Shown here piece by piece: positions 6,253 through 35,485 of a DNA stretch of 64,000 bases. Made by a program: the position numbers and the translations under genes. Below the pieces are notes generated by a model. It saw only the letters and a program-made list of their open reading frames with translations. It searched no databases and had not been told where the DNA came from. The stretch's first letter is position 1. Each line of letters starts with the position of its first letter. Origin of the DNA: Psychrobacter fozii (GTDB taxonomy: Bacteria > Pseudomonadota > Gammaproteobacteria > Pseudomonadales > Moraxellaceae); the NCBI RefSeq assembly GCF_003217155.1, contig NZ_QJSU01000005.1, forward strand, positions 62,001 through 126,000. The letters run 5' to 3'.

Positions 6253-7149
6253 TTATTTAAGAGGATGCTCTACTAACACTGTTTTTGCTATTTCTGTCCC
6301 GATTTTTGCAATCATAGCGTCTCTATCTTCAAACGAGGCATCAGTCTCTGTAATGTATAGAGCCGCGATAACAGGTTTGCGACCGGGAGGCCACATGACC
6401 GCCGTAATCGCACGTGATCCATAACCGCCAGCCCCTGTCCTGTCTGCTACGATCCAATCACTAGGAACGCCTTTACGAAAAAGCGCATCACCAACTTCAT
6501 TACCTTTGAGCCAAGATTGCAGTTGTTGACGAGACTCTGTAGACAATGTATCTCCAAGCATTAATTTCTCAAGTGTCGTGATCATTGCCATTGGTGTGGT
6601 GGTATCTCTTTTATCTTTCGGTATTGCCTCATTCAGTTCGGTTTCCCAGCGGTCAAGTCGTGTTGTATCATCCCCAATAGAACGCAAAAACTGAGTGAGA
6701 TATTTAGGTCCACCGATGGCTTGCAGAATAAAGTTAGCCGCTGAGTTATCACTGGTTGATAGTGTTGCCTGACACAACTCGCCAAGAGACATGCCTTTTT
6801 TGCCGACATGTTTTTCTGTCACAGGAGAATAGGTGACAAGGTTGCTTTTCGAGAACCTAACGACTCTATCGATTTTTTCTTGACCTACATCAACATTATG
6901 TAGCACGTTGGCACAAGCAAGGGTTTTAAAGGTACTACTTAAAGGAAAGCGTTCATCCGATCTGTATTCCCAGCGTTGTTCAGTCTCTAAATCATGCACA
7001 GCTAGACCGATTCGAGCACCCAATTCATTTTCAGCACTTTTGACAGCGTCAACCAATGAATCTTCGGCATTAGCATGTAATGGTAAAGTGAGACAAAAAA
7101 CAGTAATGAGTGTGCTAAAAATCTTAGTTTTGCGTTGTAGTAAATACAT
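6253..7149 (-). CDS. bla: Class A beta-lactamase, carbenicillinase (RTG) type
   Basis: A 298-residue periplasmic serine beta-lactamase with a signal peptide of about 28 residues. All class A boxes are present: STFK (nucleophile Ser at residue 72, Ambler 70), SDN (Ambler 130-132), ETELN (Glu166) in the omega loop, and RTG where most class A enzymes have KTG. The cysteines at Ambler 77 and 123, which form the usual disulfide, are present. Arg at Ambler 234 is known from the CARB/PSE and RTG carbenicillinases, so hydrolysis of penicillins including carbenicillin is expected. AAGGAA lies upstream of the ATG. No regulator or mobile element is next to it, but it sits between two versions of a small gene. 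Confidence 0.93.
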
Positions 7150-7158
7150 GATGAATAG

Positions 7159-7299
7159 AGTTCCTTTTGGGCTAATGATTTGGCAACTGTGATTAACGAG
7201 AAATACTTAAACGAGCTATTGGCACATTAGCGCAAAGCGATGAGTTTTTGAATGGTTTAAACAGTGAGATAAAAGATTTTGATGAAGATGGTCTCTGAT
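7159..7299 (+). pseudogene. Frameshifted second version of the small acidic gene at 5914-6156
   Basis: Translation gives [20 protein letters not shown], then after an extra eight-base stretch (CATTAGCG) the frame shifts and continues QSDEFLNGLNSEIKDFDEDG. This parallels PFSSEEMTRLINEDRLNKLL followed by QSDEFLSSLSGELRDFDEDF in the intact gene. No start codon or first half is visible. Its 5' side runs into the upstream region of the beta-lactamase gene. It is divergent enough to be an old paralogue and not a fresh copy. Confidence 0.65.
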
Positions 7300-7396
7300 T
7301 TGAGTAGGGTGCACCAATAACTATCATCAATTTATTTTTGGTTCACTATACTTTAATTACACTCAAAATGAGATACTGACATTGTCAATATTCATG

Positions 7397-7828
7397 TTAT
7401 ACCCCTACAAATTCAAGAGTTGTGTTGTCTCTAGTCATACATTCAAGTAAAAAAACATCTGCATTTTCGACAATGTCAAATAACTGGTTAACGACTTCCT
7501 TTTTATCTTTATCGGTTGGTTCATTAATATTACCTCTAAAGTCTAATTCAAGATGATAGTAGCCAACCCCTACACCTACGATAAATTTGTCATTTAAAAA
7601 CGCGAAACGATGATAAGGGTCAGGACGACCATAAGCAATCGCATAAAAGATGGCGTCATCGGTATGATATATGTAGCGTGATTTTTCAAAGGTTTCGGGT
7701 GGCGTAATGTTTTCTAAGTACTTCTCGAGGAAAATGAATAAATATCTTACTTTTTTCTCATTCAGATGCTTTCTGTCATTAATTATATTTTTCAGCTGAG
7801 TTGCACTCATGTGTTCTTTAACTTTCAT
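7397..7828 (-). CDS. Hypothetical soluble protein
   Basis: A 143-residue protein without signal peptide or membrane segment. The first 50 residues are lysine-rich and helical in appearance; the middle contains YHTDDAIFYAIAYGRPDPYH and a Gly/Val-rich strand region. No family was recognised. The ATG at 7828 is supported by AAGGATGG upstream. It stands alone and ends before the hairpin-flanked antiporter region. Confidence 0.55.
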   Translation of the reverse strand: MKVKEHMSATQLKNIINDRKHLNEKKVRYLFIFLEKYLENITPPETFEKSRYIYHTDDAIFYAIAYGRPDPYHRFAFLNDKFIVGVGVGYYHLELDFRGNINEPTDKDKKEVVNQLFDIVENADVFLLECMTRDNTTLEFVGV

Positions 7829-7869
7829 AAATCCATCCTTTTTTATGCACTATTTTCTATTCCCACCTT

Positions 7870-7903
7870 AAAACAAAAAAGCCATCTATACGATAGCTTT
7901 TTA
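7870..7903 (-). terminator. Terminator of the antiporter-family gene
   Basis: AAAAAGCcATC and GATaGCTTTTT form a short hairpin just downstream of the minus-strand permease gene ending at 7930; it can also act on the opposite strand. Confidence 0.6.
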
Positions 7904-7929
7904 TAGAATTGCGTTTTAGCTAAAGCAAC

Positions 7930-9291
7930 CTACAATACCATCGCCGCAATCCAACCAAACGCCAGTAGCGGAATGTTGTAATGCAAGAATGTCGGTATCA
8001 CGCTGTCTTTGATATGGTCATGCTGACCGTCGATATTTAGACCAGAGGTTGGCCCTAATGTCGAGTCTGACGCAGGCGAACCCGCATCACCCAGCGCGCC
8101 AGCCGTACCGATAATCGCTACAGTAGCCAATGGCGAAAACCCTAACGAGATACACAGCGGCACATAAATCGCGGCCAAAATAGGAATGGTCGAGAATGAC
8201 GAACCGATACCCATGGTCACAATGAGACCAACCAATAGCATAATAAATGCAGCAATCGCTTTATTACCCGCAAACAATGACGCCGCACCATCGACCAATG
8301 GCTGAATCTGCTCAGTTACTTTCATGACTTCCGCAAACCCTTGCGCAGTAATCATAATAAAGCCAATCATCGCCATCAGTTTGATACCGTCATTAAAGAC
8401 CGAATCGGCTTCACGCCACTTGACCACGCCGGTAGCCATAAAGACACCGAAACCAAACATCGAACCTAGTAATAGCGAATCGGTATAAAGTTGTACGACA
8501 AAGGCAGTCACAATCGCTACCAGTGCAACCAGCGTCTTTAGCTTGCTTTGGGACTGTGCATCAGCCGCCGTTTTGCTCAATGCATCACCCTCTACGACCG
8601 CATCATGTGCCTCTTTATCTATCGCAACTTGTTGATACGCGCGTGGCTTACGGTAACTGATAAAGACAGCAATCAGCAAACCAATAAACATGCCTAAGGC
8701 TGGTATCGCCATCGCTTTAGTGACAGAGATGCCACTAACATCAATGCCCGCCTCGCCCACGTTTTTGAGCATGATTTGATTGAGATAGATATCACCAAAG
8801 CCATATGGAATAAACATATAGGTAGTGACCAGACCAAAGGTAATCAAACAAGCAATCAGACGTCTATCAATGTGCATGCGATTGAATGCGAGTAACAGTG
8901 GCGGTACTAACAGAGGAATGAAGGCGATATGAATAGGAATTAGGTTTTGGCTAAAGCAGCTCATGGTAATCAAGCCTGCAAACAGCATGTATTTAATCAT
9001 GCCACTGGTGCCGCCCGCATCAATACGTTTGATGACGGATCCTGCCAGTGACTGTGGCAATCCTGAATGAGCAATTGCGACCGCAAACGCCCCAAGTAAC
9101 GCATACGACAGTGCAATCTCTGCACCATTGCGGATGCCTTCTTGAAACGCTTCTAAAGTCTCAGTGATACCAAGACCCGCTATCAGTCCGCCAGCCAGCG
9201 CACCAATTAATAAACTGAGCACCACGTGCACTCGCGCAAGTGACAGCCCTAACATGATGATGACTGCCAGCAGTACCGCATTGATTGCCAT
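7930..9291 (-). CDS. Na+/H+ antiporter-family permease (NhaC/YuiF-like)
   Basis: A 453-residue inner-membrane carrier with about 12 hydrophobic segments. The conserved blocks GSSFSTIPILAAIYVPL and GALGDAGSPASDSTLGPT are those of the Na+/H+ antiporter family that includes YuiF, some members of which are suspected amino-acid carriers. The loop between the two halves (about residues 220-255) is hydrophilic. The ATG at 9291 with GAGG seven bases upstream is preferred to the in-frame TTG at 9324. Ion and substrate specificity cannot be read from sequence. Confidence 0.8.
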   Translation of the reverse strand: MAINAVLLAVIIMLGLSLARVHVVLSLLIGALAGGLIAGLGITETLEAFQEGIRNGAEIALSYALLGAFAVAIAHSGLPQSLAGSVIKRIDAGGTSGMIKYMLFAGLITMSCFSQNLIPIHIAFIPLLVPPLLLAFNRMHIDRRLIACLITFGLVTTYMFIPYGFGDIYLNQIMLKNVGEAGIDVSGISVTKAMAIPALGMFIGLLIAVFISYRKPRAYQQVAIDKEAHDAVVEGDALSKTAADAQSQSKLKTLVALVAIVTAFVVQLYTDSLLLGSMFGFGVFMATGVVKWREADSVFNDGIKLMAMIGFIMITAQGFAEVMKVTEQIQPLVDGAASLFAGNKAIAAFIMLLVGLIVTMGIGSSFSTIPILAAIYVPLCISLGFSPLATVAIIGTAGALGDAGSPASDSTLGPTSGLNIDGQHDHIKDSVIPTFLHYNIPLLAFGWIAAMVL

Positions 9292-26734: not shown

Positions 26735-29032
26735 TTAAAAGTCAACGCTAACGTCGAACACATAAGTACGACCAGGTTCGTTAAAAGTACGTGCACCAGC
26801 ATTCGTAGCAGTACCCTCACGATAAACACCCGTATCAAATAAATTTTTGACACCAGCACCAACGGTTATATCCTTAGTCAAATCATAGCGAGTGCTCACA
26901 TTAGCAATAGCATACGGCTCGCGATCAAGCAACGGGTCATCACTATCATCTCCCGTTGTAGCTGAAATCGTAGGGGCTTCAATCGTGCCATAGTAGCTCA
27001 CATCAGCGTTAGCATTCCAACGCGGCGTAATGTCCCAATCGACACCCGTGTTCACAGTGAACTTAGGAATGAGTGATAGCGGCTCGCCATTGTCTTTTCG
27101 CTCTGAGCGCAAAATACCAGTTATGTTAGAAGACCATGACACCGTATCGGTAACAGGAACTTTTACAAACCCTTCTAAACCTTCGATAACAGCCTCGCCT
27201 TGGTTTTCCCATACGAAGATCGAGCGGCCTGTCGCCGTATCTAACGCTACACGGTCGACACCAGCGCCGATTCGGTTGTCATAAGCGTTATGATAGTAAG
27301 TCAAGCCAGCATTTAGCCCAGTACCATCATCATAAGTAAAGGTCAGCTCTTTATTCCAAGAGGTTTCATTTTCTAGGTCGGGATTACCCAATACATGACA
27401 ACCTTGTTCTTCCTCAGGCACCCAAGATGGACAGCCATTACCACCCGTGTAGTAGATGTAATTTGGATCAAGTTGATACAACGAGGGCGCTTTAAATGCA
27501 CGGCTGACACCGCCTTTCACTGACCAATCAGGACTAAAGTGCCAAGTGCTGTTGATACTAGGCGACCAGTTACTGCCAGCCTCGCTATGGTAGTCAAAGC
27601 GTAGACCTGGAGTGATATACCAGTCAGGTGTAATCTCATAATTGTCTTCTAAATAAGCACCGATGAGGTAGGCATCTGAGGTTGGGTCGCGCTTGTCAGG
27701 ATCAGTCTCTACATCACCAAAATCAAAACCATCTGCAAATGCCAAATCAGATACCACTGGGTTATCCAGCTTTTCACCGCGGAACTCTGCACCAGCAGTC
27801 AAGGTATGACGGTCAAAATAAATGTCCCACTCTGATTTAGCATTTAGCGTGTCATAGGTGGCTTCTGTCCACTCAAACTCCTCGCCGTCGTCAGGTATCT
27901 GAATTTGACCTTCACCACCGCCAGCACTGCCTTCACCTAGACGCTCATTGACTGTCCGAGTGTACTCTATGAAACTGTTACTACTAGCGTCATCATACTC
28001 ACCGCGATGTGTGATCGCCGCACCATAACGCTGCATTTTGCTTGTTGTTTCACCTTCTAACTCATCTAATAAATTTTGATTCACGCTTTGGAACAATGAA
28101 TCACCTGCCCAGCGGTTTTCTTGACGGCTATAGTTCACTTCGAAACCGACGGTATTCATCGCATCCATCGCGTATTCAAACACTTGGCGCGCATCGATAT
28201 TTTCAACACCCTCAGTACCTGCTGCTACTGAGTCATCTAGCGCTTCGGCTGCATTAATAGAGGGATCATCTGCTTCACTGTCATGATATCCAAGGGTCGT
28301 ACGCGAGGACAGCTTGTCAGTTAAAGCGCCTGCCATATTGACATTGGTACGCCAGCTACTGCCTTCTAGATCGCTTTCTGGTGCCTCATAATGTCCGCTG
28401 ACGGAAAACTCTGTTTCGGTTGGGCGCTTAGTAATGATGTTTACCACACCGCCCATACTGCCAGAGCCGTAACGAGCGGCTGCTGGGCCACGCAATACTT
28501 CGATGCTCTCGATAGCGCTTGGTGGCACCCATTGTGAGTCACCACGCGTGTCTTGCTCACCACCACGGCTAGGTCGTGAGGAATTACGAGAAGTGACAGG
28601 ACGACCATCGATTAAGATAAGCGTGTTGTTTGGACCCATGCCACGCAAATCAATTTGACGTTGGTTACCACGCTGACCTGACGTCGATGACCCTGACAAA
28701 TTCACACCTGGCATTTTACGTACAATCTCTGAGATATCATTAGAAAGTGAGGCTTTTTCGATGGCTTCTTCGCTAATGATAGACAGTCCTGCCGCCTGCT
28801 CCAACTCCTCTCTGGCCGCTCGTACCACAATCGTGTCTAGTGTGGCTGTAGGCACTGCTTCCTGCTCAGACGCTGCTTGCGTCACCATCTCATCGCTTTC
28901 TGCTGCAACAGCCGTGCTACTAAGAATAGAGGCCACAGCGATACTGAGCAGGACTTTGCCCGTCGCTAAGCGTTGAGAGTTCTTTGGAGAAGTGGGGTAT
29001 GAATGATCAGAGCGACCTGATTGGTTTAACAT
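26735..29032 (-). CDS. TonB-dependent catecholate siderophore receptor (FepA/PfeA-like)
   Basis: A 765-residue outer-membrane receptor. Signal peptide to about residue 43, a TonB box region (LDTIVVRA), a plug domain with RGMGPNNTLILIDGRPV and DTRGDSQWVPPSAIESIEV, RGPAAARYGSGSMGGVVNI before the 22-strand barrel, and a C-terminal phenylalanine. The plug segments closely resemble FepA/PfeA/BfeA receptors for enterobactin-like catecholates. AGGAAC precedes ATG 29032. It fits the neighbouring importer; a Fur-core palindrome lies about 390 bases upstream. Confidence 0.92.
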   Translation of the reverse strand: MLNQSGRSDHSYPTSPKNSQRLATGKVLLSIAVASILSSTAVAAESDEMVTQAASEQEAVPTATLDTIVVRAAREELEQAAGLSIISEEAIEKASLSNDISEIVRKMPGVNLSGSSTSGQRGNQRQIDLRGMGPNNTLILIDGRPVTSRNSSRPSRGGEQDTRGDSQWVPPSAIESIEVLRGPAAARYGSGSMGGVVNIITKRPTETEFSVSGHYEAPESDLEGSSWRTNVNMAGALTDKLSSRTTLGYHDSEADDPSINAAEALDDSVAAGTEGVENIDARQVFEYAMDAMNTVGFEVNYSRQENRWAGDSLFQSVNQNLLDELEGETTSKMQRYGAAITHRGEYDDASSNSFIEYTRTVNERLGEGSAGGGEGQIQIPDDGEEFEWTEATYDTLNAKSEWDIYFDRHTLTAGAEFRGEKLDNPVVSDLAFADGFDFGDVETDPDKRDPTSDAYLIGAYLEDNYEITPDWYITPGLRFDYHSEAGSNWSPSINSTWHFSPDWSVKGGVSRAFKAPSLYQLDPNYIYYTGGNGCPSWVPEEEQGCHVLGNPDLENETSWNKELTFTYDDGTGLNAGLTYYHNAYDNRIGAGVDRVALDTATGRSIFVWENQGEAVIEGLEGFVKVPVTDTVSWSSNITGILRSERKDNGEPLSLIPKFTVNTGVDWDITPRWNANADVSYYGTIEAPTISATTGDDSDDPLLDREPYAIANVSTRYDLTKDITVGAGVKNLFDTGVYREGTATNAGARTFNEPGRTYVFDVSVDF

Positions 29033-29417
29033 AAATAACGTTCCTTGAAGCACTTAGGCTCATTAGTACCTTTCAATTGCACTGACAGCGAACATTTTTA
29101 GCCACTTTGTACACAGTGCTTATGATGCATCCACATCGTCAGCATATATAACTAGACACATGACTGCGAAGCGATATAAAGATATAAACATGTCATGAAG
29201 TATGCGTATGCAAAGTGTGACTAAAGCATGGCCAAGTGGCTTAAATATCGGTGTAAGACAAATCAGTAAAGGTAGGTACTGAGTAGGGTTAAAAGTTTGG
29301 TGACGCGACAACTGGCATAGACCAACTGCTTAAAATATGAATTACGATAAGTTCTCTAGAATAGGTACAGCAAAGAATCTTTAACTATTCTGTAATGAGC
29401 GGAACACACTTTAGCAA

Positions 29418-29484
29418 TATAAATAAGATAATGCAAACATTAATGATAATTATTATCATTAATGTTTGCATTATCTTATTTATA
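29418..29484. promoter_or_regulatory. Perfect 67-bp palindrome with a Fur-box core
   Basis: Arms of 33 bases (29418-29450 and 29452-29484) are exact reverse complements around one central T. The core ATGATAATTATTATCAT is a Fur-type sequence and the outer arms include ATAATGCAAAC, which also flanks the Fur-like site before tonB. It is the likely iron-control element of the receptor gene about 390 bases away, though a closer promoter cannot be excluded. It has no T-run and is not a terminator. Confidence 0.75.
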
Positions 29485-29945: not shown

Positions 29946-32069
29946 TTAGGCTAAACCTATCTTAGAGCTATTTTTTAGAGAGATTACTCTATCCGCTGAA
30001 TTAATAGTTTCTGGTCTATGTGCTATAAAAACTCTTGTGATATTTAAGCTTTTAATAGTGTTGTTAATTTTTCTTTCAGTCTCAACATCTAGATGACTGG
30101 TAGCTTCATCTAAAAATAGAATTTTAGGTCTTTGATAGAGAGCTCTTGCTATAAAAATTCTTTGCTTTTGCCCCCCTGAGAGTATACTTCCCATATCACC
30201 TATTAAGGTTTGATATTCCATTGGCATACTCATTATCTCATCGTGAATTGATGCTAACTTTGCACATTTAGTCGCCCAAAGCATATCTACACCTTCATCA
30301 AAAAAACTTATATTTTCTAGTAAAGAGCCTGCAAATAATACGTCGTCTTGTGCAACACACGCTATTAGCTTTCTTGAGTTTAATTCCGCTATATTTTTAA
30401 AATTTTTCCCTGCAATAAGGATTTCGCCAGAACTGGGTTTTAATTCACCTATCATTAAACTCATCAGAGTACTCTTACCGCAACCAGTCTCTCCAACTAT
30501 CGCTACAGATTCTTTATCTTTAACGTACAAAGATATATCCTTTAGAATATACTCTTCGTCTTCTGAGTATTTAAAACTAATATTTTTCACTTTGATATCT
30601 GAAATATTATCTTCAGATTCTATTGGGTTTAACTTCGGTAGGTATTGTGAACGCTCTTGATCCTGTAGGACGATATCAGCTAACCTTTCTCCATGAATAT
30701 TTAACATTTTTAATTCAACATATTTATCGATTAGAGAGCTAACACGACTACCAAACTGGGATTTATAGGCTAAAAAAGCAATCAACACACCGACAGTAAA
30801 CTCTCCTTCAATAACAAAGCTTGCTCCCAAATAAACAACAATTAAGTTTTCTAAGCCAAAAATTATTCCATTTGTGAATTGGAACATCAAATTCAGCTTT
30901 TGAGTTTTCAACCTAGCATTTACTTGATTGACAAATAATGCCAACCAACTTGATTGTCTATACTCTTGCTTATCATAACGCTTGATGGCTTTAATACCTC
31001 TCATGCTTTCCATGAAGTGTGTGGATTGCTGAGCAGCATGTACAATTTGTTCTTCTGTAGCTCTCCGTAGAGGTATATACCAAATCCACCTCAAAGCTGC
31101 ATAAATTATCAAAGATAAAATGACTACGATTGATAGCGATGGACTATACATGAACATTAGAGTAAGCGTAAAAATCGTCATTAAACCATCTAAGATAGCA
31201 GTCAAAAATGTTGTGGTTAATGTTGATTGAATAGCATCTATGGAACTAAATCGAGAAACAACATCTCCTAAATGACGTTTTTGAAAATATGTAGTCGGTA
31301 GGTGTAATAAATGATTGAATATATTTGATTTCCATTGCACTTTTAAAGTCGTAGATAAATACATTCCAATCCACGACTGGAGTAAGCTAATGCTATTATT
31401 GAGTAACATTAATAAACCAAAGCCGATAACTAAAGTTGTTAATAAATTAATATCAGCAGACAAAATCACATGATCTATAACCCACTGCATAAAAAGTGGT
31501 GTCACTAAAGAAAATAGTTCTAAGACCAATGCTAAAATAAAAACCTGACTTAGTGAACGCCATATTCCTTTGATTCCTCCGAAGAGCCGAAATATATCAA
31601 TAGTTGTTTTTTCTGTTTTCTGTTCAAAATTTGCATTCGTCCATAACTCTAAAGCGACGCCTGTAAAACTTTTTGAAGCATCTTGCATACTTATAGATCT
31701 TTCACCTAGCGCAGGATCTAGAATGGTTATCTTCCTCATTGAAACAGAAGTTAAAACAACAAAATGGTTCATATCCCAATGTAAAATACAAGGCAGTCTT
31801 AGCTTGTTCAACTCTTTTAAGTCAAGTCTTATAGGTCTAGTTTGTAAATCAATACTATTCGCAATAGCAATTATTCTCGCAAGTGTTGCACCTTTTTGGG
31901 AGATTGAATGTTTTTGTCTTAGAGTAAACAGGTCAGTATAGTAACCATGATAACTGGCTATCATAGCTAAACAGGCAAGACCACATTCCGAGGATTCAGT
32001 TTGTAGAATAATCTTAGTGCGTCTGGTAAGACCGAGAGAAAGCGATTTTAGATAACTATTATTTGTCAC
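29946..32069 (-). CDS. Microcin/bacteriocin ABC exporter with C39 leader peptidase
   Basis: A 707-residue membrane protein that removes a double-glycine leader and exports the peptide. The N-terminal C39 peptidase has oxyanion Gln23, Cys29 (SECGLAC), His102 (DMNHFVVL) and Asp118 (LDPALG). Six transmembrane helices follow (about 160-430), then the ATPase with GETGCGKST near residue 530, LSGGQKQR and LFLDEATSHLD. The start is GTG 32069, four bases after the stop of the HlyD-like gene. The closest known type is CvaB and Moraxella microcin exporters. An outer-membrane TolC partner is not encoded here. Confidence 0.93.
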   Translation of the reverse strand: MTNNSYLKSLSLGLTRRTKIILQTESSECGLACLAMIASYHGYYTDLFTLRQKHSISQKGATLARIIAIANSIDLQTRPIRLDLKELNKLRLPCILHWDMNHFVVLTSVSMRKITILDPALGERSISMQDASKSFTGVALELWTNANFEQKTEKTTIDIFRLFGGIKGIWRSLSQVFILALVLELFSLVTPLFMQWVIDHVILSADINLLTTLVIGFGLLMLLNNSISLLQSWIGMYLSTTLKVQWKSNIFNHLLHLPTTYFQKRHLGDVVSRFSSIDAIQSTLTTTFLTAILDGLMTIFTLTLMFMYSPSLSIVVILSLIIYAALRWIWYIPLRRATEEQIVHAAQQSTHFMESMRGIKAIKRYDKQEYRQSSWLALFVNQVNARLKTQKLNLMFQFTNGIIFGLENLIVVYLGASFVIEGEFTVGVLIAFLAYKSQFGSRVSSLIDKYVELKMLNIHGERLADIVLQDQERSQYLPKLNPIESEDNISDIKVKNISFKYSEDEEYILKDISLYVKDKESVAIVGETGCGKSTLMSLMIGELKPSSGEILIAGKNFKNIAELNSRKLIACVAQDDVLFAGSLLENISFFDEGVDMLWATKCAKLASIHDEIMSMPMEYQTLIGDMGSILSGGQKQRIFIARALYQRPKILFLDEATSHLDVETERKINNTIKSLNITRVFIAHRPETINSADRVISLKNSSKIGLA

Positions 32070-32073
32070 GATT

Positions 32074-33345
32074 CTATATTTTTCCAGTTATACTGTATAT
32101 TGGTTCTAATACCCACTCATATAGTTTACGACGTTCTTGCAATACATCTGCTTCTAAAGTCATACCTACTTGTAAAGGTAGTCTTTCACCATATGCTTGA
32201 ATATCTTGGCGATCTAGTACAGCTTTTACTAAATATACAGGTTTATTATTCATTTGCTCCTCTAGAGATACTGTGCCAATACTAGGAATATTTTGGGCAG
32301 CTATAGCTGTTTTGGCAATTGAACTAATCCTAGCTTTCGCATGCCCAAATTTTTGATAAGGGTATGCCTGATACCGTAACAGAACTATATCGCCAACATC
32401 CATAAACCCAATAGCAATATCTGGTACGTATAATTGTGCAACCAATACGTTGCTCTGAGGTAAAATTGTCATTAACGGTTTAGAAAGGTCTATGTATTGC
32501 CCCGTTTGAGCATATATACTACTTACTACACCAGGCTGTGAAGCTTGTATAACTGAGCTCTCACTTGCTTTTACTTCTACTGACTGCTGTTGATTATCGT
32601 ATAGAAGTCTATCAAGTTGAGATAATTGGTTTTTATGCTCATGCTGAAGTTTTTCTACTGTATATGACTGTTCATTGATTTGCTTTTTTAGTGAAGATTT
32701 ATTTGTTTCCAAACTATCTTTCTTCTCAAGTGCTAGAAGGTATTCCATATTTTTTGAATCAAAATCTTCCCTAGATACGGCACCAATATCTATAATCGAT
32801 CGGTAATTATCAAGAACCTTTTTTGTCGTTTCTATTTCTTCTTCTTGAAGTCTTATTGACGCTACTACTTGATTTAGATCATCCTCTAATCTCGATTTTT
32901 GCATAAGATAAATCTGGACCTGAAGTTCATGAGCTTTGTTAATTTGATATTTTTCTATATCAAGAGCAGCAGCCTTATTTTCTAACTCTTTATCTATTGC
33001 CGCTGAAGTACTTCCTTCATTGTTATATTTTGTTGTTGCAATACTATATAACACATCATCTTTTTTGACTGTTTGACCTTCAGCGACTAACTTTTTGCTG
33101 ATAAAACCTTGTACATTACTATAGACTTGTATTAAACCGTCCTTTGGAACTAGCTGACCTTGAACTGTGCTACGTTTAGTGTAACTACCAAAAAATAGAA
33201 AAAAAACAATCATCAAGCCTATAATTAATGAGCATATAGTCAGTAGAGTAAAACTAAAAGGACGAGTAAGAATAACATTACCTGCCCATCCCTGATTTTT
33301 AGCTTCTAAAACCTCTTTTCTAAAAATATTTTTTTTCTCGGACAT
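32074..33345 (-). CDS. HlyD-family periplasmic adaptor of the microcin exporter
   Basis: A 423-residue membrane fusion protein: one N-terminal helix (about residues 31-54), a lipoyl-type half near 70-100, a long coiled coil (about 115-260) and a C-terminal beta-barrel part. It connects the inner-membrane ABC exporter to a TolC-type outer-membrane channel, as CvaA does. Its stop codon lies four bases before the exporter start, so the two are coupled. AT-rich like the rest of the cluster. Confidence 0.9.
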   Translation of the reverse strand: MSEKKNIFRKEVLEAKNQGWAGNVILTRPFSFTLLTICSLIIGLMIVFFLFFGSYTKRSTVQGQLVPKDGLIQVYSNVQGFISKKLVAEGQTVKKDDVLYSIATTKYNNEGSTSAAIDKELENKAAALDIEKYQINKAHELQVQIYLMQKSRLEDDLNQVVASIRLQEEEIETTKKVLDNYRSIIDIGAVSREDFDSKNMEYLLALEKKDSLETNKSSLKKQINEQSYTVEKLQHEHKNQLSQLDRLLYDNQQQSVEVKASESSVIQASQPGVVSSIYAQTGQYIDLSKPLMTILPQSNVLVAQLYVPDIAIGFMDVGDIVLLRYQAYPYQKFGHAKARISSIAKTAIAAQNIPSIGTVSLEEQMNNKPVYLVKAVLDRQDIQAYGERLPLQVGMTLEADVLQERRKLYEWVLEPIYSITGKI

Positions 33346-33407
33346 AGCTTGTTCTTAAAATAATTTAAATTTTGTAGATGTAATAATTTAAATAATTGGC
33401 AAGCACA

Positions 33408-34556
33408 TTATTTCTCTACAGAAATAATGTCGTTTAGCGCTAAATTAAACAATAAAACATTCAACACTTCCTTGTCATAATTATTAAACTCGCACAGTAT
33501 ATCTTTGATAGATGCGACTGACTCATTAAACAAAAATCTTAACAATTTCCCACTAATATCATCTATAGTTATTTTATTACCATTTATTACTACGTAATTA
33601 TCTTCAAAAAAATGTAGTAAGTTAGCATTTACAACTAGTTTCGTATCTACAGTAAATATGTTTACGTTACCATTACCTAAGACATCTAAAGACAGTTGTG
33701 TTGGTAGTCTCTGATTACCAATATAATTAGTCAAAAAACTATCATAATAGGATTTATCGTTCAAAATTTTTGAATAGTCTTCAGAAATTTCTTGTAACGT
33801 GCTCTCATCATTTTCAAATGATTTAAGATTGCGACGACAACCTAATATATCTGGAGTCTGATTAAGCAGCCAACTCATGTACTCAAATCCAGTAGGAGCA
33901 AAAGTTCCGATTGCCAAATGGAAGGTTTCTTCTCCTATAGGTAAAGGGTTATGCCACCAACCACGAGGAACATAAAGTATATCTCCAGCCTCCAAGATGA
34001 CATCCATATAGACTTCTTCTGGTTCTTTGATATCCTGAAAATTTTTGGTTTGCTGCATATATAGTGGTAGTTCAAAATTTGGTGCTTTTAGTATCCAGCG
34101 CTTTCTTCCTATCAATTGTACCGCAAACACATCTCTTGTATCCCAATGAGATTTATAAGATGATTTACTACTAAAAGCAGCATAACCACTAGTTATAACA
34201 TTGGCTCTAGAAAAATTTGCGATTTTCTTGCTGATTTTATCAATTTTAGGTTCATTGGTAATACGGTTATAGACCAATGTCGCACCATTTCTTAGATATT
34301 CATATAATATAGGACGAATCATACGAAATTCAGTTTTGCCAAGATTATGATAGCTTTCAATATATTGATCTTTTGAAACCACATAACCATTCATTAACTT
34401 GAAGCTTTCGTCAGACACATCTGCACGACTATATACTTCATTCACATAATCCCAGCTGAAATCAGTATCTTTTGCTGCAGCTTTGAATAAAAAAGGTTTT
34501 TTGTAGAGGTATTCTGAATCAAAATCAGTTTGACTAATGTAGAAATCAATATTCAT
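33408..34556 (-). CDS. JmjC/cupin-4-type Fe(II)/2-oxoglutarate oxygenase in the microcin cluster
   Basis: A 382-residue soluble protein. The double-stranded beta-helix iron ligands are clear: HWD (His137, Asp139) in SHWDTRDVFAVQL, and His202 in GDILYVPRGWWHNP. The segments RKRWILKAP and FHLAIG fit the ribosomal-oxygenase-like (YcfD/MINA) cupin-4 group, which hydroxylates side chains in proteins. The C-terminal 100 residues resemble a winged-helix-like tail. Position between the precursor gene and export genes suggests it hydroxylates the microcin. That is inference: no substrate is shown by sequence. The ribosome site is weak. Confidence 0.82.
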   Translation of the reverse strand: MNIDFYISQTDFDSEYLYKKPFLFKAAAKDTDFSWDYVNEVYSRADVSDESFKLMNGYVVSKDQYIESYHNLGKTEFRMIRPILYEYLRNGATLVYNRITNEPKIDKISKKIANFSRANVITSGYAAFSSKSSYKSHWDTRDVFAVQLIGRKRWILKAPNFELPLYMQQTKNFQDIKEPEEVYMDVILEAGDILYVPRGWWHNPLPIGEETFHLAIGTFAPTGFEYMSWLLNQTPDILGCRRNLKSFENDESTLQEISEDYSKILNDKSYYDSFLTNYIGNQRLPTQLSLDVLGNGNVNIFTVDTKLVVNANLLHFFEDNYVVINGNKITIDDISGKLLRFLFNESVASIKDILCEFNNYDKEVLNVLLFNLALNDIISVEK

Positions 34557-34564
34557 TATATTAT

Positions 34565-34605
34565 CACTAAAAAAAATATAACCTTGAGCACCTGCTCAAG
34601 GTTAT
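34565..34605 (-). terminator. Hairpin terminator/attenuator between microcin precursor and oxygenase genes
   Basis: A perfect 13-bp stem (ATAACCTTGAGCA and its inverse, 34578-34605) with a two-base centre, followed on the minus strand by ATATTTTTTTTAG. It lies 50 bases after the precursor stop. It should end most transcripts after the precursor, with readthrough into the modification and export genes. Confidence 0.85.
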
Positions 34606-34655
34606 GAAGTATGAGATTTTACAGATTGGTTAAAATTTCCTAGTGCGAAGCACTA

Positions 34656-34958
34656 TTAGCAGTAAGCAGAACCATCTGAATAATCATCTCCAGCCATACT
34701 CGTTACTTTATCAATTCCTGTTGATATCCAACTCTGAATAGGAGTGTTCTCATTAAGCCATTCACCACCTGCATAACCTATTACCGCAGCTCCGCCGTAC
34801 CCTGTACCAAGTGCAGTCCCAACAACAATAGATCCTCCTGTCGCAGCAGCGGCAAAAGCTCCGGCTCCTGCACCGAATGCAGCTCCATCTTTAACATCCT
34901 GTCTAGTTACAGCCCCGCCTGAAACAATATTCATTTCGACTATAGTTAATTCTCTCAT
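34656..34958 (-). CDS. Class II microcin precursor with double-glycine leader
   Basis: A 100-residue precursor. The leader MRELTIVEMNIVSGG (15 residues) matches the class II microcin leader pattern known from microcins V, L and H47, and predicts cleavage after GG by the C39 peptidase encoded downstream. The 85-residue core is rich in Gly and Ala (about core residues 9-50, with membrane-active GxxxG-like spacing), followed by a polar part, an acidic DDYSDG stretch and one C-terminal cysteine. GGGATGG precedes ATG 34958; the in-frame TTG extension to 35042 overlaps the upstream gene and is rejected. No homologue by name was recognised. Confidence 0.88.
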   Translation of the reverse strand: MRELTIVEMNIVSGGAVTRQDVKDGAAFGAGAGAFAAAATGGSIVVGTALGTGYGGAAVIGYAGGEWLNENTPIQSWISTGIDKVTSMAGDDYSDGSAYC

Positions 34959-35002
34959 TTTTCCATCCCTATTATGAAATATAAAAAACTCTAATATCTT
35001 TG

Positions 35003-35182
35003 TTAATTCCTTATCTTTAAAGAAATAACAACTGCAAGACAAACAATAAAACCTATAAAACCTGCAATATAAAACGAATCAAGTAATATTCTTCCTGTTA
35101 ATTTATAGTTTAAGTAATGCATCCCCATAAAAAACAACCAAAGCAATACTAAAAGAAATATTGTCTTTATAAAAATTTTCAT
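35003..35182 (-). CDS. Small two-helix membrane protein, candidate microcin immunity protein
   Basis: A 59-residue protein with two hydrophobic helices (about residues 5-24 and 35-55) and basic ends, ending 44 bases before the microcin precursor. Size, topology and position fit microcin immunity proteins such as those of microcin V and the Moraxella system, which protect the producer's inner membrane. AAGG precedes ATG 35182; upstream in-frame starts are less supported. The immunity role is inferred from context only. Confidence 0.7.
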   Translation of the reverse strand: MKIFIKTIFLLVLLWLFFMGMHYLNYKLTGRILLDSFYIAGFIGFIVCLAVVISLKIRN

Positions 35183-35396: not shown

Positions 35397-35416
35397 AAAA
35401 AAATGCAGATAATAAT

Positions 35417-35435
35417 CTTAATGATATTCATTGTC
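35417..35435. promoter_or_regulatory. Fur-box-like site upstream of the microcin cluster
   Basis: CTTAATGATATTCATTGTC matches the 19-base Fur consensus at 15 positions and contains inverted AATGA/TCATT. It lies 235 bases before the start of the candidate immunity gene, the first gene of the minus-strand cluster. It suggests that the cluster is expressed under iron limitation. Confidence 0.6.
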
Positions 35436-35485
35436 AATAAATATGTCCTATTTATTTTAAATCAGTCTAAAACCTAAAACTTTCA

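Follow-up and report, generated by a model that had tools for sequence, protein, structure and literature searches.

The system analysed in this work has a published relative in gene order, the mcaABCD locus of Acinetobacter baumannii ATCC 17978, which was described in 2023 and consists of genes for a microcin (Mcc17978), a cupin-like protein, an HlyD protein and SunT (PMC10333792). In that paper, the cupin-like McaB is read as an immunity protein, Mcc17978 is described as iron-regulated, with a Fur box upstream, and as using Fiu, which transports iron-catecholates, together with its homologue PiuA, and the question of a bearing of modifications on production, export or entry is left open. JmjC enzymes are also known from clusters of ribosomal precursors: according to excerpts of the respective papers, the JmjC protein BipG hydroxylates ornithine in the ribosomal biphenomycin precursor (PMC12707348), PbsQ hydroxylates likewise (PMC12257519), and bacterial JmjC homologues are mentioned in contexts resembling those of ribosomally synthesised and post-translationally modified peptides (PMC12710340). 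For a microcin with a cupin gene, PMC10333792 was the sole paper among the matches listed, coverage of subscription journals being thin. The locus studied here is a five-gene operon for a putative microcin, found on the minus strand of a 64,000-nucleotide stretch of Psychrobacter fozii (contig NZ_QJSU01000005.1, positions 62,001 to 126,000; hereafter the window, meaning this whole stretch), which includes a gene for a JmjC oxygenase. An earlier note on this DNA knew of no description of the combination; in view of the gene set published in 2023, the combination cannot be called undescribed.

The interpretation that we consider rather probable, from comparison of sequences, is that this would be an iron-regulated operon for a class II-like microcin, whose JmjC protein hydroxylates a short tag of the precursor before export by the C39 exporter. 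The observations behind it are the gene content, the predicted fold and iron-site residues of the enzyme, the tag found across the family, its association with the enzyme and the immunity-like neighbours. According to the open reading frame (ORF) calls, the operon begins with a two-helix membrane protein of 59 residues (35003..35182), likely the cognate immunity protein, for which the Pfam search gave no match at E 1; it continues with a microcin precursor of 100 residues (34656..34958), which has a double-glycine leader and a Gly/Ala-rich core of 85 residues, a JmjC protein of 382 residues (33408..34556), an HlyD-type periplasmic adaptor of 423 residues (32074..33345) and a C39-peptidase ATP-binding cassette (ABC) exporter of 707 residues with a GTG start (29946..32069). 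All five components of the cluster proposed in the earlier note are therefore present on one strand. The exporter matches Peptidase_C39 (1.2e-36), ABC_membrane (9.1e-39) and ABC_tran (1.4e-30), and the adaptor HlyD_D23 (5.6e-14) and HlyD_3; the matches exceed the Pfam cut-offs, as expected of class II microcin export, and the double-glycine leader MRELTIVEMNIVSGG (34914..34958, minus strand) is likewise that of a class II microcin. C39 peptidases cleave such leaders after GG, where the precursor would thus be cut. Scanned from 34961, i.e. with one residue more than the start at 34958 gives, the precursor matches the Pfam family MccV weakly (E 0.015; 16.2 bits, under the cut-off of 27). Genes of the MceC, MceI or MceJ type, for siderophore attachment, are absent among the five operon genes. 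The arrangement is not due to chance, because P. glacincola BNF20, where the one relative of the oxygenase in the named collection was found, has its precursor, JmjC, HlyD and ABC genes arranged as in the window, with proteins 77% (JmjC), 83% (HlyD) and 92% (ABC) identical to those of the window, but with a different core. The end of the window's core, NENTPIQ.W...GID, is common to two other loci (L099 and L031; loci are cited by L numbers and genomes by G numbers) and is found in L033 as NNNTPIQ.

The JmjC protein matches JmjC_2 (PF08007) at 3.4e-29 and, with 101.4 bits, far exceeds the cut-off of 22. Its HxD...H iron triad, correctly recognised as intact in the earlier note, is formed by H137, D139 and H202, which are invariant, together with K152, in 19/19 aligned sequences, the window's included; K152 aligns with the Lys of NO66 that binds 2-oxoglutarate (2OG). 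The nearest solved structures by sequence are NO66, YcfD and MINA53. An AlphaFold2 model built with 17 sequences (mean predicted local distance difference test score 86.5; predicted template modelling score 0.83) could be aligned along residues 1-382 with the YcfD-type L16 arginyl hydroxylase 4csw (Z 23.6, root-mean-square deviation 4.5 over 346 residues, 18% identity; VIA-align) and with NO66 (Z 20.4, deviation 7.4 over 359 residues), and the predicted fold runs from the JmjC part through the C-terminal winged helix. Because of the PF08007 match, the invariant iron-site residues and this YcfD/NO66 fold over the whole length, the window enzyme is apparently an intact 2OG/iron oxygenase of the ribosomal-oxygenase type. 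YcfD, NO66 and MINA53 share with it the family, the HxD...H motif and the full-length fold as far as the winged-helix part; however, these enzymes act on ribosomal proteins, according to the titles of their entries, whereas the window enzyme sits in a microcin operon. The proposal that a JmjC-type hydroxylase is built into a C39-exported microcin operon is supported.

The precursors of the JmjC clusters, whose cores are otherwise varied, share a tag of six residues, [SATD]Gx[DNGY]Y[GQSCNT], which is present in 21 of 24; in shuffled cores the mean was 0.70 and the maximum four in 2000 trials, and none of nine precursors from C39 clusters without JmjC contains it. The shorter form Gx[DNG]Y also occurs in 21/24 (shuffle mean 4.4), and nine of the 11 core groups, defined by shared core words, hold the tag. 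Its fixed residues in the 21 precursors are the Tyr and the Gly three places before, both of them required by the pattern, and, since no other residue is fixed, the Tyr would be the simplest common site of modification. Immediately before this Tyr there is Gly in L027 and L033a and Tyr in L030a, and the tag of L029b ends directly after Gln. In 13 precursors the tag lies near the C-terminus (window, L027, L077, L099, L029a, L029b, L030a, L031, L033a, L033b, L036a, L036b and L041), and in eight it follows the leader, either closely (L034, L035 and four precursors of L038) or early in the core (L032 and L037). In the window it is AGDDYS (34677-34694), the proposed target of the oxygenase, within the C-terminal tail AGDDYSDGSAYC (34659..34694, minus strand). 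The counterparts of this tail are DGSGYGDGCDY in P. glacincola, AGNDYCEDGGNY and DGNDYCRDGGNY in two Acinetobacter clusters and SGNGYTDGTDYC in Neisseria gonorrhoeae, which suggests a common form GxxYx(x)DGxxY for these. Hydroxylation of the microcin, as put forward in the earlier note, thus gains a concrete target.

Precursors were chosen by eye in JmjC clusters and controls alike. Of 13 loci without JmjC (L081-L093) that were searched for precursors, seven (L085-L088 and L090-L092) contain precursor-like rows and the other six contain none; L094 is from a genome that does have a JmjC gene. Acinetobacter plasmid copies that are identical enter the count a single time, as L077. Three cases were left out of the 24: L028, whose precursor is frame-broken and has SGNDYG in its tail piece; the first precursor of L079, broken between two frames, with SGNGYT in its tail piece; and L045, where one copy loses its tail and the other is a near-duplicate of L030a with SGNYYG. 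Two clusters with a deep Acinetobacter-like JmjC (L039 and L040; 33-34% identity) each contain two different precursors with a common NNxxSSEDGD-like tail, which may correspond to the tag in this branch of the enzyme.

The tag can be tied to the enzyme because its position varies, because a natural pair of homologous cores differs in it and because subtypes of tag and enzyme are paired. With regard to position, L037 and L028 have enzymes of 97-99% identity although the tags are at opposite ends of the two precursors; caution is due here, since the enzyme of L037 is divided between two ORFs and the L028 precursor is the frame-broken one. The natural pair is formed by L038d, from a JmjC cluster, and L086b, from a genome (G097) with no JmjC match at E 1e-20: the cores are homologous (CSWxNFGK...HLxTCWW; they align with a score of 171, while 1000 shuffles reached 73 at most), and where L038d has SGNNYGD after the leader L086b has an unrelated stretch. 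In a tree of 23 JmjC rows, which has some long branches and a poor outgroup, the enzymes accompanying YQ or YN tags (five precursors) group together (support 86/99), a second group (100/99) unites those beside YG tags in the Moraxella-like genus and the N. gonorrhoeae row, and a third one (also 100/99) contains the window enzyme, that of P. glacincola and two Acinetobacter rows. Tag subtype largely follows enzyme subtype in these rows, and both tag types are represented among the precursors of the two clusters that have tandem enzymes (L029 and L033).

The linkage of precursor and enzyme is maintained across genomes. In the family sample, 19 of 299 genomes match the window JmjC at E 1e-8, and in 16 of these the gene is linked to a precursor with a GG or GA leader (fourteen with at least 39% JmjC identity and two with 33-34%); the other three matches are 22-27% identical and have other contexts. 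An oxygenase gene unlinked from the precursor in relatives, which would have told against the earlier proposal, is consequently not the pattern observed. At E 1e-20, matches were found in 2/105 genomes of the own genus and 11/22 of the Moraxella-like genus and, with an Acinetobacter plasmid JmjC as query, in 4/175 of the Acinetobacter-like genus, and the own genome was the sole match among 369 of the class sample at E 1e-15. The Acinetobacter relatives of the window JmjC are 60% and 59% identical to it. Plasmids of A. baumannii, including one that was typed as conjugative, also carry the cluster, as do two N. gonorrhoeae records; in the record examined (L079), JmjC (42-45% identical), precursors, HlyD and C39-ABC genes lie in a row.

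Damaged copies are common in this family. The JmjC gene is interrupted, split or shortened in L030, L034, L035, L037, L038, L041 and L078, precursors are damaged in L028, L045 and L079, and some A. baumannii plasmids carry an insertion sequence in or beside the JmjC gene: in L102 it is interrupted by ISAba10 and in L114 it is apparently truncated beside ISAba13, the HlyD and exporter genes being kept in both. This may reflect frequent decay, phase variation or assembly errors. The JmjC of L045 (G063, 7103-8290) looks chimeric, with an early part of YQ type and a later part of YG type, perhaps by recombination between tandem copies. On plasmid pLQ510 (L078, 3-1120) the JmjC gene matches just to about residue 268 and the end of the ORF that follows, DIENSPIIKEAMQMYQK...ILP, resembles that of a precursor (compare L035), which would fit a deletion that fused remains of enzyme and precursor. 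Two further candidates were rejected as members of the system: a Salmonella record (28% identity) and small Escherichia coli plasmids with a cupin gene of 26% identity. The latter, at least 15 plasmids of about 7.9 kb, carry the cupin gene beside an ABC ATPase gene and one for a hypothetical protein in the one examined (L100, p4_1_1.3), possibly another cluster for a modified peptide.

Several facts weigh against hydroxylation of the tag by the JmjC protein. The pattern was shaped on the same data, and a form fixed earlier, after most rows had been seen, gives 18/24; the precursors seen later, of L099 and L079, match that earlier pattern just at the core Gx[DNG]Y. The precursors are related, so the counts are not independent and the nine controls amount to about four families; for the same reason, and given the shaping of the pattern, the Fisher value of 6e-6 for tag against JmjC is not readable as a probability. 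The tag is absent from three JmjC-linked precursors (L033c, L033d and L079x) and from all four of the deep Acinetobacter JmjC clade (33% JmjC identity). Pairing of subtypes has exceptions in L027 (YG, in the window's branch beside YS and YC) and L079 (YT, in the YG branch). Among the five genomes with an N-terminal tag, the JmjC gene is undamaged just in G100, being interrupted, split or short in G045, G063, G086 and G089, so the idea that the tag works at either end partly rests on possibly dead enzymes. Besides, ribosomal oxygenases are known, from the titles of structure entries, to act on Arg or His and not on Tyr.

The best supported alternative, which we nevertheless regard as unlikely, is that the JmjC protein is an immunity factor, for instance one oxidising the producer's receptor or target, and that the microcin is unmodified. 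It draws on an experimental result, which speaks against a maturation role: a plasmid with mcaB alone protected the sensitive delta-mcc strain of A. baumannii ATCC 17978 (PMC10333792). The same source places the mcc locus between ACX60_RS04750 and ACX60_RS04770 and names four genes, and since this span runs one gene beyond them a fifth gene may exist there. The neighbourhood of the precursors argues for separate immunity proteins as well. At 23 of 26 precursor places there is a same-strand ORF of 40-130 residues with at least two hydrophobic stretches within 700 bp, against 13.8% for random anchors from the same loci, and the count rises to 24/26 when at least one stretch is allowed; the places leave out L033c, L033d and L045. 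G086 has a single JmjC gene (N-terminally short) and next to it four precursors that carry the tag; a two-helix ORF, in some cases a shared one, is present within 700 bp of every one of these, and the 14 kb examined around this cluster gave no HlyD or ABC match. The two-helix neighbours fit a shared maturation enzyme with separate immunity proteins. Moreover, immunity proteins are usually specific, yet closely similar JmjC proteins accompany different cores, and the presence of JmjC tracks the tag of the precursor.

According to another alternative, improbable in our judgement, the tag is a receptor-binding element, the JmjC protein acts elsewhere on the peptide or stabilises it, and their co-occurrence stems from common descent of a mobile cluster. 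The tag could indeed serve the receptor and not the enzyme: on related clusters and plasmids the components move as a set, the tag resembles class IIb uptake modules in its shortness and its place close to a terminus, and tags persist beside damaged JmjC genes. However, exporters from loci without JmjC (L085-L088, L090-L092 and McbB) are homologous, with 43-66% identity, yet their precursors have no tag, and the pairing of tag and enzyme subtypes largely holds even inside one tandem cluster. That the JmjC protein is stray cargo, a YcfD-like ribosomal oxygenase acting on a ribosomal protein, is highly improbable, for although fold and family are those of YcfD and NO66, identity to YcfD-type chains in structure alignments is 16-18%, and the genes have the distribution and the linkage to precursors given above.

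The G+C content is 33.5% in the cluster and 42.7% in the window. The cluster adjoins a gene for a FepA/PirA-like ferric enterobactin receptor (26735-29053), upstream of which lies a long Fur-like palindrome (29428-29474, with the break in similarity near 29461-29481). In the three closest relatives of the receptor locus the shared DNA ends just past this palindrome and is followed by other DNA without microcin genes; because of this, the cluster looks like an insertion beside the receptor gene. The receptor was considered as a part of the system and rejected, as the DNA similarity stops at the palindrome in the three closest of five receptor-bearing genomes. In the stretches of these five no JmjC or xanthine-permease match was found, just a generic ABC ATPase match (27%) in two, and in 23 loci that hold either a JmjC cluster or a JmjC relative the receptor gave one weak match (L099, 29% over 183 residues). 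Ahead of the operon, the best sigma-70-like promoter of the region (35409..35437, minus strand, 11/12) is overlapped by a Fur-box-like site (35417..35435, strand not assigned, 15/19). Promoter-like sites overall are no commoner than expected by chance (38 found; shuffle mean 32.4, standard deviation 5.6). The Fur-box-like site ranks within the six best-scoring positions of the window; when the upstream region was resampled 2000 times with a first-order Markov model, 15 resamples reached its score. Before six other clusters the best scores for a Fur box are just 11-14 of 19, and none of the loci examined here contains the 19-base Fur site that was published for ATCC 17978. Between precursor and JmjC genes there is a terminator-like hairpin (34578..34605, minus strand, 12 pairs and a T tail), likely an attenuator.

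Returning to a JmjC protein that matures the microcin, the scheme proposed for regulation, reaction and site, uptake and killing would be as follows. Low iron would permit transcription from the Fur-box promoter, and the precursor would be made in excess over the enzyme, because the hairpin follows its gene. The JmjC protein, a peptidyl hydroxylase of the YcfD/NO66 kind, would bind the precursor in the cytoplasm and hydroxylate the Tyr-centred tag near its C-terminus, AGDDYS and perhaps also the second Tyr of DGSAYC. The C39 domain would then remove the leader, the peptide of 85 residues would leave by way of HlyD and a TolC-type channel whose gene lies outside the operon, the 59-residue protein would confer immunity on the producer, and the oxidised tag would probably aid entry through the TonB-dependent siderophore receptors of the target cells to be killed. 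A more daring version, which we consider unlikely, holds that the tag Tyr, and perhaps also neighbouring Asp or Asn, would be turned into an iron-binding group, either a catechol resembling 3,4-dihydroxyphenylalanine (DOPA) or a beta-hydroxy residue. The 2OG enzyme TauD, which hydroxylates its own Tyr to DOPA, offers a chemical precedent, and the idea of a catechol-like tail is attractive because Mcc17978 is iron-regulated and uses Fiu and PiuA; no paper pairing "dopa" with "microcin" was among the 20 of 46 matches listed. If this were true, a genetically encoded siderophore mimic produced by one oxygenase would replace the enterobactin derivative of class IIb microcins, and the microcin would use catecholate receptors for entry (in the case of Mcc17978, Fiu and PiuA).

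Compared with known systems, mcbABCI of Moraxella catarrhalis pLQ510 resembles the operon in HlyD (46.7% identical to the window's), in C39-ABC (66%) and in having a double-glycine precursor and a small immunity protein; the main text of its paper (PMC2761928) does not contain the word "cupin". Unlike the window precursor, McbC has no tag. The earlier note had cited mcb as an example of known equipment; pLQ510 itself holds a damaged JmjC gene, 89% identical to the L028 type over 194 residues. Class IIb microcins such as MccE492 likewise combine a variable core with a short conserved terminal module, modified after translation, and iron regulation, and Mcc17978 uses Fiu like several of them. 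However, class IIb microcins have an enterobactin derivative attached to a tail rich in serine (PMC11634061), whereas the window tail AGDDYSDGSAYC is Tyr-centred and not serine-rich; furthermore, MccE492 needs MceC, MceI and MceJ, while the sole candidate modifying enzyme of the window operon is the JmjC protein. BipG and PbsQ are similar in being JmjC/cupin enzymes in clusters with a ribosomal precursor and differ, in the excerpts available, in acting on ornithine in a small cross-linked peptide from another kind of cluster. With mcaABCD the window operon shares the order of microcin, cupin-like, HlyD and SunT-type genes, a likeness that relies on gene order and description; McaB is presented as cupin-like immunity and not as a JmjC hydroxylase, and neither tag nor two-helix gene figures in the part of the published description at hand. 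Within the literature searched, the gene arrangement is therefore known and found here in a new genus, whereas the maturation role, the tag and its pairing with the enzyme appear to be new. If the proposal is correct, the cupin-like gene moves from immunity to maturation, which gives a testable answer to the question of modification in Mcc17978; one oxygenase and a six-residue tag would be enough to modify microcins of many cores, perhaps at either end, the tag would be a portable one for uptake, and the enzyme would add a bacterial branch to the JmjC peptide hydroxylases.

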